A stretch of 25,887 bases of DNA from a virus. Positions within the stretch are counted from its first letter, which is position 1, and each line of letters starts with the position of its first letter. The stretch is from IMG/VR virus record IMGVR_UViG_3300047560_000060, positions 1 to 25,887 of that record, one strand, 5' to 3'. The position numbers and the translations under genes were made by a program. The notes under the pieces were generated by a model. It was not told the DNA's origin. It saw only the letters and a list, made by a program, of their open reading frames with translations, and did no database searches. Shown piece after piece: positions 13,056 to 22,775 of the stretch.

Positions 13056-13712
13056 GTGAATTACGCTGCACTACAGCAGGCGATTCAGGATTACTGTCAG
13101 AATACAGAGTCCACGTTCGTCGCTAATATCCCGACGTTTGTTCAGCAGGCGGAACAGCGGATCTATAATCAGGTCCAGTTCCCGTCCCTGCGTAAGAACG
13201 TCACGGGTAGTGCGACGGCAAATAATAAGTACCTGTCCTGCCCGTCCGACTTTCTGTCGGTGTTCTCGATTGCTGTTATCGAGGCGGACGGATCTTATAA
13301 ATACCTGCTGAATAAGGACGTGAACTTCATCCGGGAATCCTACCCGACACCGTCCAGCACGGGGACTCCGGAGTATTACTCCTTGTTCGGTCCGCAGACT
13401 GCAGATCCGAATGAACTGGCCTTTATTCTAGGGCCGACCCCGGATGCAGCGTATCAGGTTGAGTTGCACTACTTCTATTATCCGACCTCAATTGTAACGG
13501 CGGGTACGTCGTGGCTTGGCGATAATTTTGACTCCGTACTTCTGTACGGGTCGTTGGTCGAAGCTTATACTTTCATGAAGGGCGAGATGGAACTGCTTGC
13601 TATGTACGACGGAAAGTACAAGGAAGCTCTCTCGCTTGCTAAACGTCTTGGCGACGGTCTGGAGCGTCAGGATGCATATCGTAGTGGTCAAGTAAGGATT
13701 CCGGTCACATGA
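13056..13712 (+). CDS. Head-tail adaptor (SU10 adaptor-like)
   Basis: The 218-residue protein matches the pattern of phage adaptor proteins of the SU10 type: AIQDYCQNTESTFVANIPTF and VQQAEQRIYNQVQFPSLRKN at the N-terminus, a central PSDFLSVFSIAVI strand region, and the C-terminal helical part with SWLGDNFDSVLLYGSLVEA. Adaptors extend the portal and connect it to the tail nozzle. It starts with GTG at 13056, with GAGG at 13044-13047 at normal spacing, and ends with a four-base overlap (ATGA) into the next gene. Confidence 0.78.
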   Translation: MNYAALQQAIQDYCQNTESTFVANIPTFVQQAEQRIYNQVQFPSLRKNVTGSATANNKYLSCPSDFLSVFSIAVIEADGSYKYLLNKDVNFIRESYPTPSSTGTPEYYSLFGPQTADPNELAFILGPTPDAAYQVELHYFYYPTSIVTAGTSWLGDNFDSVLLYGSLVEAYTFMKGEMELLAMYDGKYKEALSLAKRLGDGLERQDAYRSGQVRIPVT

Positions 13713-13942: not shown

Positions 13943-14410
13943 ATGGCTGTTGGATCTACCGCAATGTGCACGTCGTTCAAGGTCGATATCCTTAGCGGCG
14001 GCATGAATTTCAATACGACGAACCGTGCCCTGACTTCCAATACTCAGGATACGTTCAAAATCGCCCTGTACACCTCGGCGGCTACCATCGACTCGACCAC
14101 CACGGCTTATACGGCTACGGGTGAGGTTGCTTCGGGTGCTGGCTATACGACGGGTGGTAACACGCTGACGATTTCGCAGGTTCCGACTAGCTCGGGTACG
14201 CCGAGCACGACTGCGTATATCAACTTCAGCAACTCGTCGTGGTCTTCGGCTTCGTTCTCGGCTGATGGTGCGCTGATCTATAACAGCAGCAACTCCAACA
14301 AGTCGGTTGCGGTGCTAAACTTCGGTGGTACCAAGACGGTTTCGTCTGGCACGTTCACGATTCAGTTCCCGACGGCGGGTACGGGTTCGTCGATCATCCA
14401 GATCGCCTGA
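13943..14410 (+). CDS. Ser/Thr-rich virion structural protein
   Basis: The 155-residue protein is dominated by Ser, Thr, Gly and Ala and alternates in a beta pattern (TFKIALYTSAATIDSTTTAY; SWSSASFSADGALIYNSS; SVAVLNFGGTKTVSSGTFTI). Similar sequences are common next to fibre genes in related phages. It may be a fibre-attachment or baseplate-surface protein. AGGAGA at 13931-13936 gives a strong start. It opens the long fibre region. Confidence 0.65.
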   Translation: MAVGSTAMCTSFKVDILSGGMNFNTTNRALTSNTQDTFKIALYTSAATIDSTTTAYTATGEVASGAGYTTGGNTLTISQVPTSSGTPSTTAYINFSNSSWSSASFSADGALIYNSSNSNKSVAVLNFGGTKTVSSGTFTIQFPTAGTGSSIIQIA

Positions 14411-14430: not shown

Positions 14431-14931
14431 ATGGCACTCGTTGTTGCCGACCGAGTAAACGAGACCACTACCACTGCCGGTACTGGAACCGTAACCCTTG
14501 CTGGAGCCGTTAGCGGCTATCAGTCCTTTGCGGCTATCGGTAACGGAAATACGACCTACTACACGATTGCCCATCAAACGGCGGCGGAGTGGGAAGTTGG
14601 TATTGGAACCTATACGTCTTCGGGCACGACGCTGTCCCGAGATACTGTGCTGGCTTCTAGCGCAGGCGGGGCCAAGGTCACGTTCAGCGCCGGTACCAAG
14701 AACGTATTCTGCGATTACCCGGCAGGTAAGTCGGTCTACAGAGACGCCAACGGTAATGTTGTCCTGACGGGCAACCTTACGACCGGTAACGGTATCGTCG
14801 CTAACTCTACGACAATTAGTACTAACTACACTGTTGCAACCGGTACTAATGGGTTCTCGGTCGGGCCGGTTACGGTTTCTTCTGGCGTGTCTGTAACGGT
14901 GTCTTCCGGACAGCGATGGGTGGTGATCTAA
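14431..14931 (+). CDS. Tail fibre-like protein (short)
   Basis: The 166-residue protein has an N-terminal segment (ETTTTAGTGTVTLAGAVSGY, then QSFAAIGNGNTTYYTIA, then WEVGIGTYTSSGTTLSRDTV) that I recognise as a repeated building block of phage tail fibres. Its C-terminus (TNYTVATGTNGFSVGPVTVS, ending QRWVVI) is likewise a common fibre end. The probable role is a virion-bound fibre segment or fibre-base protein. The ribosome binding site is a weak GGGGTGA before 14431, and the next fibre gene starts one base after the stop. Confidence 0.72.
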   Translation: MALVVADRVNETTTTAGTGTVTLAGAVSGYQSFAAIGNGNTTYYTIAHQTAAEWEVGIGTYTSSGTTLSRDTVLASSAGGAKVTFSAGTKNVFCDYPAGKSVYRDANGNVVLTGNLTTGNGIVANSTTISTNYTVATGTNGFSVGPVTVSSGVSVTVSSGQRWVVI

Positions 14932-18589: not shown

Positions 18590-18916
18590 ATGTTTCTTGA
18601 CGAAAAAATTAAAGCATATCTGGCGCAAAACAATATTTCTTTTGGCGTTGGAGACTATCAAACAGGCCAACCGCAAGGTCAGAACGATCAGATTTTGGAT
18701 TGGGACGAATCCAAGCTCGGTCCTATTCCTACTCAGGAACAGCTAGATGCTGCATGGGCTGCCAAGGAAGCTGCTGACGTTGCTGTGGCGTATAAAGCTC
18801 TCCGGGCTTCTGAGTATCCGAGCTTTGCCGATCAATTCGATCTGCTGTATCACGGCGGATTCGATGCGTGGAAGGCCGCTATTCAGTCGGTCAAAGATAA
18901 GTATCCGAAGGGATAA
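18590..18916 (+). CDS. Putative tail fibre assembly / accessory protein
   Basis: The 108-residue protein is acidic at the N-terminus (QTGQPQGQNDQILDWDESKL) and ends AYKALRASEYPSFADQFDLL, then YHGGFDAWKAAIQSVKDKYP. The YPSxxDQxDxLYHxG block is frequent in proteins encoded directly after phage tail fibres and used as fibre assembly factors, so I assign that role tentatively. It starts 13 bases after the fibre stop with AAAGAG upstream. Confidence 0.62.
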   Translation: MFLDEKIKAYLAQNNISFGVGDYQTGQPQGQNDQILDWDESKLGPIPTQEQLDAAWAAKEAADVAVAYKALRASEYPSFADQFDLLYHGGFDAWKAAIQSVKDKYPKG

Positions 18917-18926
18917 ATAATACCCA

Positions 18927-19892
18927 ATGTTCGGTTTTACCGCATTTTCAGCCGCGCCATTTTCGGATTTAGGGTCTGTCTCTATTTCCGTGAGCGTTGC
19001 TGTTACCGGCGTTACCGGTACTGGCTCGGTAGGTGCGGTTACTACTCGGTCTGATACTACTTTTGCCGTTACCGGAGTTACTGGTACGGGGTCAGTCGGC
19101 ACGGTTACTACCCGATCTGATACTACTTTTGCTGTTACCGGCGTTACGGGTACTGGCTCGGCGGGTACGGTCACCGCGTTTGGCGGACAGGTAATTTCTG
19201 CTACCGGAGTCACGGGTACTGGCTCGGTCGGAACAGCCACAATCGCCCTGTCTCCTGCGGTCTCGGTCACGGGAGTCACGGGTACTGGCTCGGTTGGCGC
19301 GGTCACAATCGCCCTGTCTCCTGCGGTCTCGGTTACGGGAGTCACAGGTACTGGCTCGGTCGGGACGGTCTCGGTTGCGTTGTCTCCCACGGTCTCGGTC
19401 ACGGGAGTTACGGGTACTGGCTCAGTCGGGACAGCCACGGTCAATGTTTCGGTTACCGTACTTACTACCGGCGTTACCGGGACTGGGTCGGTCGGGACGG
19501 TGTCCCTCTCGATTTCTTCGACGGCGCTTGTCTCAGGCGTTACCGGCACGGGTTCGGTCGGGACGGTTTCGTTCATTATTTCCCCGATTGTGTCCGTTAC
19601 CGGTGTTACCGGGACTGGATCGGTCGGCACAGTCGTGGTCGGAATATCTCCGGTCGTTGCCGTTTCGGGCGTCACCGGCACGGGTTCGGTCGGGACGGTT
19701 ATCGGATCGATTAGTTGTACCTTCAATGCGGTCGGCGTTACCGGTTATGGTATAGTCACAGGGCCTAGCGTCTGGGGTCAGATAGACGATAATCAGACGC
19801 CTAATTGGACACAAATAGCTACCGGACAAACTCCCAACTGGACTTCGATTAATGACAGTCAGAATCCAAACTGGACTCCGATTGCCGCGTGA
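18927..19892 (+). CDS. 22-residue tandem-repeat surface protein
   Basis: Of 321 residues, 28-269 consist of eleven consecutive 22-residue units, each beginning GVTGTGSVG(T/A), then ten to twelve variable, mainly hydrophobic and Ser/Thr residues. A degenerate twelfth unit follows. The C-terminus (283-321) has three 11-residue units of the form WxxIxxxQxPN and a final WTPIAA. Such regular Gly/Thr/Val repeats suggest a beta-solenoid or fibrous shaft. It lies between fibre genes and is probably virion-associated. I know of no characterised homologue. The ribosome binding site is weak (GAAGGGA about 13 bases upstream). Confidence 0.72.
   Translation: MFGFTAFSAAPFSDLGSVSISVSVAVTGVTGTGSVGAVTTRSDTTFAVTGVTGTGSVGTVTTRSDTTFAVTGVTGTGSAGTVTAFGGQVISATGVTGTGSVGTATIALSPAVSVTGVTGTGSVGAVTIALSPAVSVTGVTGTGSVGTVSVALSPTVSVTGVTGTGSVGTATVNVSVTVLTTGVTGTGSVGTVSLSISSTALVSGVTGTGSVGTVSFIISPIVSVTGVTGTGSVGTVVVGISPVVAVSGVTGTGSVGTVIGSISCTFNAVGVTGYGIVTGPSVWGQIDDNQTPNWTQIATGQTPNWTSINDSQNPNWTPIAA
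19008..19733 (+). repeat. 66-base coding tandem repeat, eleven units
   Basis: Eleven in-frame units of exactly 66 bases encode GVTGTGSVG plus a variable half. The conserved half varies mostly at third codon positions (GGC GTT ACC GGT against GGA GTC ACG GGT), whereas the variable half changes amino acids, so the protein pattern is kept by selection rather than by recent copying alone. Units 4 and 5 are nearly identical and may be a recent duplication. The regular unit also keeps a long frame open on the opposite strand. Confidence 0.95.
19773..19871 (+). repeat. 33-base coding repeat, three units (WxxIxxxQxPN)
   Basis: Three consecutive 11-residue units begin with Trp: WGQIDDNQTPN, WTQIATGQTPN, WTSINDSQNPN, and a partial WTPIAA ends the protein. 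The unit is exactly half of the 22-residue unit upstream. Trp/Ile/Gln positions are invariant and would stack in a repeated turn structure. Similar short Gln-Trp repeats occur at the ends of some phage structural proteins, from memory. Confidence 0.9.
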
Positions 19893-19902
19893 GGATTAGG
19901 TA

Positions 19903-20811
19903 ATGGCAACAATTTCATCGAACCTGCGTCTCACTCTTATCGGTACTGGTGAACAGGCCGGTACGTGGGGCACCACAACCAATACCAATCTGGGTACCCT
20001 GCTAGAACAGGCAATTTGTGGCTACACAACGCAGGTAATTTCGGACGTTGGGGACACGACCATCACGATCCCTGACGGCGCTTCGGGTACTGGGCGCTAC
20101 ATGTATATCGAACTTACGGGTGCCTTGACTGGTGCGCGTGACCTGATCGTCCCGGCCTATACCAAGCTGTATTATATTTACAACAACACGACTGGCGGCT
20201 ACGCAGTCACGGTCAAAGTGTCGGGCCTTACGGGTGTCTCGGTTCCGAACGGCGCTAAGACGCTACTGGTCTGCAATGGCACGGATATCGTCAACGCTCA
20301 GTCCTACCTGTCTACGCTTACGCTGGGTTCAGCTCTTACGGTTGCTAATGGCGGTACGGGCGCTACGTCGATCACGGGGCTTGCCAAGGGTAATGGCACG
20401 GCTGCCTTCACTGCCGCTGTAGCGGGCACGGACTACGTGGCTCCGGGCGGTGCGCTTGGCACCCCCTCTAGTGGAACGCTGACCAACTGCACGGCTGATG
20501 GCACGAACCCGGTTGGCTTTAGGAATATCCCAGCCTCCGCTAACACGACGCTGGCTGTCGGTGATGTGGGTAAGTGCATTACGGCTACCGGGACGATTAC
20601 CATCCCGAACTCGACGTTTAGCGCGGGCGACGCAGTATCGATCTTCAATAACTCGTCGGGCAGCATTACGCTCTCGTCGAGCCTTACCACGACCTATCTT
20701 GCTGGCACCTCTACGACTGGATCGACTCGTACGCTGGCAACGCGTGGGTTGGCTACGGTTTATTTCATCAGTCCGACGGTTGCCGTTATCAGCGGTGCAG
20801 GGCTGAGCTAA
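19903..20811 (+). CDS. Tail fibre protein
   Basis: The 302-residue protein has the N-terminus LRLTLIGTGEQAGTWGTTTN followed by TNLGTLLEQAICGY, the common start of a widespread phage fibre family. The centre contains LTVANGGTGATSITGLAKGN and GALGTPSSGTLTNC, repeat pieces found in many fibres, and the C-terminus TRGLATVYFISPTVAVISGA ends in a conserved strand. It is probably trimeric and part of host attachment. GAGGATTAGG precedes the ATG. The stop overlaps the next start by one base. Confidence 0.8.
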   Translation: MATISSNLRLTLIGTGEQAGTWGTTTNTNLGTLLEQAICGYTTQVISDVGDTTITIPDGASGTGRYMYIELTGALTGARDLIVPAYTKLYYIYNNTTGGYAVTVKVSGLTGVSVPNGAKTLLVCNGTDIVNAQSYLSTLTLGSALTVANGGTGATSITGLAKGNGTAAFTAAVAGTDYVAPGGALGTPSSGTLTNCTADGTNPVGFRNIPASANTTLAVGDVGKCITATGTITIPNSTFSAGDAVSIFNNSSGSITLSSSLTTTYLAGTSTTGSTRTLATRGLATVYFISPTVAVISGAGLS

Positions 20812-22775
20812 TGTCGATTATCCAAGCGTTCTTTATGGCGACGGGGAATGCTCCGTCCGGGCTTAGTTATGCAAGTCCGCAGACGTTCACTCAGAACACT
20901 GCCATTAGTCCGCTTAGCCCGACGGTGACCGGCACGGTTACAAGCTATAGTGTCTCGCCGTCTCTGCCGTCTGGTTTGTCAATCAGTTCCAGTACTGGTG
21001 TTATCAGTGGCACTCCGACGGTCACGTCCTCGGCTACGACCTACACGGTCACTGCGTCCAATCCGTACGGGTCCACGACGTTCCCGCTGAGTATTACGGT
21101 TGCTTCGGCAGTCTCGCCGCCGTCTGGTCTTAGCTATCCGAGTCCGCAGACGTTTACGCAGAACACGGCTATTAGCCCGCTCAGCCCGACGGTTACCGGC
21201 ACGGTTACTAACTATAGCGTGTCTCCTTCGCTGCCGACTGGGCTGTCGATCAACTCTTCGACCGGTGTCATCAGTGGCACCCCGACGGTTACATCTTCTG
21301 CTACGGGCTACGTTATCACGGCGAGCAACAGCGGTGGCAGCACGAACTTTACGCTCACGATTACGGTCACGGCGACACTCTCGCCTCCGTCGAACTTGAG
21401 TTATGCAAGCCCGCAGACGTTCACGCAGAATACGGCGATCAGCCCCTTGAGTCCGTCTGTTACTGGCACGGTCACAAGTTACAGCGTGGCGACCTCGTTG
21501 CCTTCCGGCTTGTCGCTTAATACTTCGACGGGTGTTATTAGCGGCACCCCGACCGTCTCGGCGGCTTCTGCCGGGTACCAGATTACGGCTAGCAACAGTG
21601 CGGGTAGCACGAACTTCACGATCTACATCACAGTGCAGATCGCAGCCCCGAGTAACTTGAGCTACCCCAGTCCGCAGACGTTTACGCAGAATACAGCGAT
21701 CACGGCGCTCAACCCGACGGTTACTGGTTCGGTCAGCAGCTACAGCGTGTCACCCTCGTTGCCTGCTGGGCTTAATCTCAATACATCGACCGGTACGATT
21801 AGCGGTACCCCGACTGCTACGTCTTCGGCGACTGGGTATGTCATCACTGCCAGCAACACTACGGGCAGCACGAACTTCACGCTCACGATCACGGTCTCTC
21901 TGGCTGCTCCGAGCAACCTGAGTTATCCCAGCCCGCAGACGTATACGCAGAACTCCGCTATCGCTGTGCTTAATCCCACAGTCACCGGTACGGTCACGAG
22001 CTACAGCGTGTCTCCGGCATTACCGAGCGGCTTGTCGCTTAATACTTCGACCGGTGCGATCAGTGGTACGCCGACGGCAATTTCGTCAGCTACGGGCTAT
22101 GTCATCACGGCTAGCAATAGTTCGGGTAGCACGAACTTCACGTTGACCATTACGGTGAACTCGGCCTTCAGCCCTGTGACGCATACCTACACTTCCGGTT
22201 CGGGTACGGAGACGGTGCCGACTGGTGCTACCTCGGTCACGATCTCGGCATGGGGTGGTGGCGGTTCGGGCGGCGCTACAGATGTCCTTTCAACCAATAT
22301 CGCCGGTGGTGGCGGTGGTGGTGGCTATGCATCCAAGACTGTGTCTGTTACGGGAGGCCAGACATTCAGCTACTCCATTGGTAATGGTGGTACCGGAGTG
22401 GTTCCGACCTTTACGGCTGTAAATGGTAATGCGGGTGCTGCTACCACAGTCTCGGGTGGTTCTGTAAGTATCTCGGCAGGTGGTGGTAGCGCTGGCGGTG
22501 TTGCTGGTGGTGCTGGTGGCACTGCTTCTGGTGGTTCCACGAATACTTCCGGCACGAATGGTGGCGGAGTTGGTTCGGCTTCTCAGGCTTCTACCGGATC
22601 GACTTCCTACGGTGGCGGCTCGCCGAATGGTGGCAATAACGCTATCTACAGTTCTTCGTCTGGCACCGGTACGGGCGGCAACGCTCCGGGCGGCGGAAGT
22701 TCAGGTATCAGCGGTAATTATGACGTCTATTCTGATGCTGGTGCCGCAGGTCAGGTTACCTTCTACTACACCTAA
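20811..22775 (+). CDS. Large surface protein: five Ig-like repeats and Gly-rich end
   Basis: The 654-residue protein has five putative-Ig (He_PIG-like) domains of 87-89 residues (about 15-455). Each starts near PSxLSYxSPQTFTQNTAIxP and contains SYSVSPSLPSGLSxxxSTGV, then ISGTPTxxSSATxYxITASN. A Gly-rich region follows (about 480-640; GGGGSGGATD, AGGGGGGGYASK) and the end is DAGAAGQVTFYYT. The Ig-like domains probably act as a stalk or bind cell-surface sugars weakly, and the Gly-rich end resembles that of the adhesin at 16807. It starts inside the previous stop (TAATG). Confidence 0.78.
   Translation: MSIIQAFFMATGNAPSGLSYASPQTFTQNTAISPLSPTVTGTVTSYSVSPSLPSGLSISSSTGVISGTPTVTSSATTYTVTASNPYGSTTFPLSITVASAVSPPSGLSYPSPQTFTQNTAISPLSPTVTGTVTNYSVSPSLPTGLSINSSTGVISGTPTVTSSATGYVITASNSGGSTNFTLTITVTATLSPPSNLSYASPQTFTQNTAISPLSPSVTGTVTSYSVATSLPSGLSLNTSTGVISGTPTVSAASAGYQITASNSAGSTNFTIYITVQIAAPSNLSYPSPQTFTQNTAITALNPTVTGSVSSYSVSPSLPAGLNLNTSTGTISGTPTATSSATGYVITASNTTGSTNFTLTITVSLAAPSNLSYPSPQTYTQNSAIAVLNPTVTGTVTSYSVSPALPSGLSLNTSTGAISGTPTAISSATGYVITASNSSGSTNFTLTITVNSAFSPVTHTYTSGSGTETVPTGATSVTISAWGGGGSGGATDVLSTNIAGGGGGGGYASKTVSVTGGQTFSYSIGNGGTGVVPTFTAVNGNAGAATTVSGGSVSISAGGGSAGGVAGGAGGTASGGSTNTSGTNGGGVGSASQASTGSTSYGGGSPNGGNNAIYSSSSGTGTGGNAPGGGSSGISGNYDVYSDAGAAGQVTFYYT
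20853..22160 (+). repeat. Five tandem Ig-like domain repeats
   Basis: The PQTFTQNT landmark recurs at nucleotide 20874, 21141, 21408, 21669 and 21930, giving periods of 267, 267, 261 and 261 bases. Units differ at both third positions and amino acids but keep long identical DNA stretches, so unequal recombination could change copy number. Confidence 0.92.

Follow-up and report, generated by a model that had tools for sequence, protein, structure and literature searches.

The window, a stretch of viral DNA of 25,887 nucleotides, contains a gene whose product is built largely of 22-residue units and is a real, conserved and hypervariable component of the attachment cassette, very likely a structural one. 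We lean, with some reserve, towards the view that this repeat protein serves as an arm or connector of the tail-fibre (host-attachment) cassette in short-tailed phages. It belongs to a large family that has no name and is encoded in the host-recognition cassette of short-tailed phages from aquatic habitats, most of them uncultured but also a few cultured marine ones, Pelagibacter phages among them. The features discussed below are listed in Table 1.

Table 1. Positions of the repeat gene, its segments and neighbouring genes in the window.
Feature	Position	Strand	Evidence
Repeat protein gene, 321 aa	18927..19892	+	ORF and repeat analysis, relatives
N-terminal segment with MFGFTAFSAAPFSDL motif ('PF' class), proposed docking motif	18927..19007	+	
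Eleven 22-residue units, 66 bases each	19008..19733	+	Repeat analysis
Twelfth unit, degenerate (GVTGYGIVTGPSV)	19734..19772	+	Repeat analysis
C-terminal 11-residue Trp repeats (WxxIxxxQxPN), proposed fibre-docking tail	19773..19889	+	
SU10-type head-tail adaptor protein, synteny anchor	13056..13712	+	PF24175, E 1.4e-26
g155 (phrog_644), followed directly in relatives by the repeat gene or by a tail-fibre gene	13943..14410	+	
g166, tail-fibre N-terminal-type domain	14431..14931	+	51% identity to N terminus of CRP-603 'putative tail fiber protein'
g302, tail-fibre N-terminal-type protein, directly downstream of the repeat gene	19903..20811	+	

Repeat architecture and codon variation

The conserved core GVTGTGSVG starts at residues 28, 50, 72 and so on up to 248, always with a spacing of exactly 22 residues, and the corresponding 66-base period was detected by TRF. 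At residue 270 the degenerate unit reads GVTGYGIVT. A preliminary description of this DNA had proposed eleven exact repeats of 22 residues. The units are in phase, and their number and period are as described there, but the word exact does not apply to the content of the units, since the core of unit 3 contains SAG, a single V to A change, and residues 10-22 vary between units. The same description had pointed to silent third-base variation in the core, and this is indeed what we found: when all pairs of the eleven cores were compared, 272 codon differences were synonymous versus 10 non-synonymous, and 282 of the 292 base differences were at third positions. For the variable half, the pairwise comparison of the eleven units gave 162 synonymous versus 456 non-synonymous codon differences. 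The C-terminal tail contains the three 11-residue units noted earlier (WGQIDDNQTPN, WTQIATGQTPN and WTSINDSQNPN) and in addition a truncated fourth (WTPIAA).

Adjacent units were more similar to each other than distant ones (mean DNA identity 0.674 versus about 0.56; permutation p 0.002), which argues that units arise by local tandem duplication. Judged from the codon pattern, selection on the protein would then preserve the core after duplication. Across the family, the repeat has a palindromic layout centred on residue 5 (mean profile correlation 0.79, p 2e-4, with four positions biased by the search pattern); this is compatible with an arch or hairpin, and we draw no proof from it.

An antisense ORF of 327 codons (18743-19726, minus strand) extends across the repeat. 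It is probably a by-product of codon usage, since the open antisense stretch in relatives covers anything between 0.15 and 1.0 of gene length.

A repeat family in the tail-fibre cassette

Scanning viral contigs yielded 146 matches to the repeat protein, 80 of which were kept for analysis. These relatives share a common plan consisting of a short N-terminal module, a variable count of 22-residue units and a VWGQIDDNQTPNW-type tail at the C-terminus; a repeat spacing of 22 is the commonest, with 19 and 25 as alternates. Divergent members are present in two cultured phages, HTVC027P of Pelagibacter (gp68) and CRP-345 of Roseobacter (gp55), and a further relative in the cultured/complete group is WJZ48131.1 of DSL-LC04; all three are annotated as 'hypothetical protein'. 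Absence of the protein from related phages, which according to the preliminary description would have counted against its proposal, was thus not observed: relatives occur in viral contigs as well as in HTVC027P and CRP-345. The closest BFVD models are uncharacterised proteins from uncultured Caudovirales phages.

No match to a Pfam or PHROGs family was obtained for the window protein, its relatives gave only scattered weak matches to Pfam, PHROGs and NCBIfam, none above the curated cut-off, and no named family in these three databases describes the protein. Our literature searches gave no description of such a repeat pattern, in line with the earlier remark that no described protein of this exact pattern was known. 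A tblastn search of phages with the full-length protein was also empty, probably due to BLAST masking of low-complexity repeats, and queries with the C-terminus, g155 or the adaptors were more productive. No relative was found in a scan of genome contigs, in which bacterial genomes were only lightly covered, and PDB sequence searches with the protein and with the family alignment gave nothing meaningful.

Variable copy number across related phages, put forward earlier as a check, was seen as differences of whole units. Three loci (L010, L011 and L012) differ by 66 and 132 aa, which corresponds to exactly 3 and 6 units, and are 98-99.5% identical over the 1.5 kb upstream; two others (L042 and L053) are 4 units apart at 86% identity. 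Over the flanks, identity for length differences of 66 or 132 aa was 96-99.5%. These numbers derive from metagenome contigs, in which assembly could collapse units. Some members contain additional segments. In L041:6138-8771 the N-terminal part contains further 22-residue repeats that differ in sequence (LYTNxNTFYxQTVT, no Pfam match), indicating that repeat types can be fused, and a Gly-rich domain is fused N-terminally of the repeats in L006:7038-9152. The ORF right after the g155 match in L112 (also in L108, L123 and L149) has an N-terminal domain of ∼115 residues ending YYYCTNHSGMGGQ, which resembles the type-1 copper (cupredoxin) motif and has no Pfam match.

The gene order adaptor1-g125-adaptor2-g77-g155-repeat gene-g302, in which both adaptors match the SU10 adaptor Pfam family, is kept in most of the 80 relatives. 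Immediately 5′ of the repeat gene lies g155 (57/77) and immediately 3′ lies g302 (47/70), so that across relatives the repeat gene lies between the genes for head-tail adaptors and those for tail fibres. To avoid selection by the repeat gene itself, 80 loci were fetched by g155 alone, 68 of them with enough downstream sequence. In these 68 loci the slot after g155 contained a repeat-family protein in 45 cases by rule (about 52 when those assigned by eye are included) and a tail-fibre N-domain protein in 13. In the 11-residue tail, the new members obtained in this way mostly have Tyr where the window protein has Trp; the Tyr version is found in marine relatives. Cultured phages have the slot filled by annotated tail fibres or by divergent repeat members. 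At several loci (for instance L091 and L104) the arrangement is that of the window, with a g166-type fibre gene in the first slot and the repeat gene further down before g302. The product of g302 is 34% identical to the N terminus of the CRP-901 tail fibre gp50 (E 4e-15) and also has PHROG tail-fibre matches. In the window, an XkdW-like protein (PF09636) is encoded immediately upstream of the repeat gene (18590-18916). The next-but-one gene (20811-22775) specifies five tandem He_PIG Ig-like domains (267-base repeat) with a fused Gly-rich domain, and its product is likely a fibre or adhesin.

Proposed role and predicted fold

According to the arm or connector reading, the repeat protein would be docked by its short N-terminal motif, either to the tail or to a different fibre protein. 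Its 22-residue repeats would form a beta-solenoid rod or spacer, with unit number determining how long the rod is, and its C-terminal Trp units would bind the fibre encoded by the neighbouring gene g302, the product of which is presumed to be trimeric. We infer presence in the virion, docking at either end and the spacer role. The N-terminal PF class was found at 8/8 loci where a g166-type fibre gene lies upstream versus 2/39 where none does (p 1.4e-7, a value that ignores phylogeny and includes three class assignments made by eye). This suggests an N-terminal docking motif that is matched to its partner. At the other end, the aromatic tail precedes a fibre-type gene in the gene order. In SU10, the nozzle has a fibre-dock loop with three Trp, each packed on one chain of a trimeric fibre (PMC9509320), and with this precedent the Trp tail may dock the fibre encoded next. 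The C-terminal Trp count varies, however, with 2, 3, 4 and 6 being common, and this does not fit a fixed trimer socket.

Alternatively, the repeat protein might itself be a receptor-binding or surface-display protein, the variable side of the solenoid contacting the host and repeat turnover providing diversity. Hypervariability of the family with gain and loss of units, variable outward positions and the location of the gene in the fibre cassette agree with this; the repeats, though, are poor in charge and aromatics and very uniform within one protein, and genes downstream encode other fibre-like proteins, which have Ig-like and Gly-rich domains. We consider this role rather unlikely.

With 42 sequences, AlphaFold2 (AF2) predicted the window protein to be an all-beta solenoid in which each unit contributes two strands (pLDDT 74.5, pTM 0.69); the tail was unresolved in the model, the C-terminal Trp region having low pLDDT. 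A divergent member with imperfect repeats was modelled more confidently as a solenoid, with block-mean pLDDT of 81-94 over residues 21-190. AF2 is biased towards solenoids for repeats, giving confident but unrealistic models, and such artefacts show stacked buried charge (PMC11795689). That bias, the moderate pLDDT of the window protein and the fact that Foldseek with the AF2 models gave no PDB match at E<=0.001 (best for the window protein, E 0.09) would agree with repeats that are disordered or loosely beta in isolation and act as a flexible spacer, the solenoid being an artefact. We regard this as improbable, given the model of the divergent member, a FoldIndex of +0.44 and the composition of the units: among family members, hydrophobic residues make up 86-94% at positions 11, 13, 19 and 21, which are of the buried type, and charged ones no more than 3%. 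Charged residues occur mainly at positions 3, 7, 12, 14, 16, 18 and 20, a distribution that a genuine beta rod would need. The repeats thus have coil length and alternating buried hydrophobic positions, as in beta-solenoid proteins, and the strictness of this hydrophobic/polar alternation supports a beta fold independently of AF2. Together with the two models and their structural neighbours it favours the beta-solenoid shaft suggested in the preliminary description, subject to the over-prediction of solenoids by AF2, and the repeats probably form a rigid rod of this kind. The accompanying idea that the variable half faces outward does not hold as stated, since positions 11, 13, 17, 19 and 21 of that half are hydrophobic in most members; variability and charge are located at alternating positions and at the turn.

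Carried further, the arm reading leads to the tentative proposal that these proteins form a class of attachment arm not described before and widespread among short-tailed phages of aquatic habitats. Such an arm would have a beta-solenoid rod of tunable length, N-terminal docking motifs that can be interchanged, and an aromatic C-terminal repeat tail by which it is coupled to a trimeric fibre. If repeat number sets the reach or coupling of the fibre, phages could tune adsorption by gaining or losing units. Cultured members such as HTVC027P gp68 make the arm role directly testable.

Comparison with known systems

The closest counterparts in cultured or complete phages are HTVC027P gp68 (QGZ17849.1), CRP-345 gp55 (UAW59141.1) and DSL-LC04 WJZ48131.1. 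Like the window protein they have repeats of the 22-residue type, and their genes are sited directly after a g155 homologue; for HTVC027P and DSL-LC04 the resemblance extends to both ends, with a Gly-Trp N-terminus and a C-terminal tail that is aromatic. The repeats of gp68 and gp55 are far less perfect than those of the window protein.

Among solved structures, parallel beta-helix adhesin/secretion domains of HMW1 (2odl), FHA (1rwr) and HxuA (4i84) align to the AF2 models with Z 14-20 and rmsd of about 3; VIA re-alignment of the Foldseek candidates gave Z 19.6 and rmsd 3.1 for HMW1, and Z 15.5 and rmsd 2.9 for FHA. These are bacterial two-partner secretion domains without sequence relation to the repeat protein, and that the nearest structures by VIA are not virion connectors counts against the arm or connector reading. 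The best VIA match was CsgA (8c50; Z 22.3 but rmsd 8.8 over 293), which likewise has two-strand repeats of about 22 residues, and curli have been reported for some pelagiphages, with operons in related HTVC023P-type phages (PMC9599517). Nevertheless, a secreted curli-like amyloid fibre (T8SS cargo) is most improbable and we rejected this identity, as CsgG was found in 0/21 records (three complete phage genomes and several fragments among them; control genomes were positive), none of 42 members matched a curlin Pfam family, and the gene lies in a virion cassette and does not adjoin csgG/csgF.

With the long tail fibre and fibre dock of SU10 the window shares the PF24175-type adaptor upstream, and Trp docking is a functional analogy. 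In SU10 the Trp residues sit in the nozzle protein, unlike those in the tail of the window protein, and the part of that study considered here describes no solenoid repeat arm (PMC9509320).
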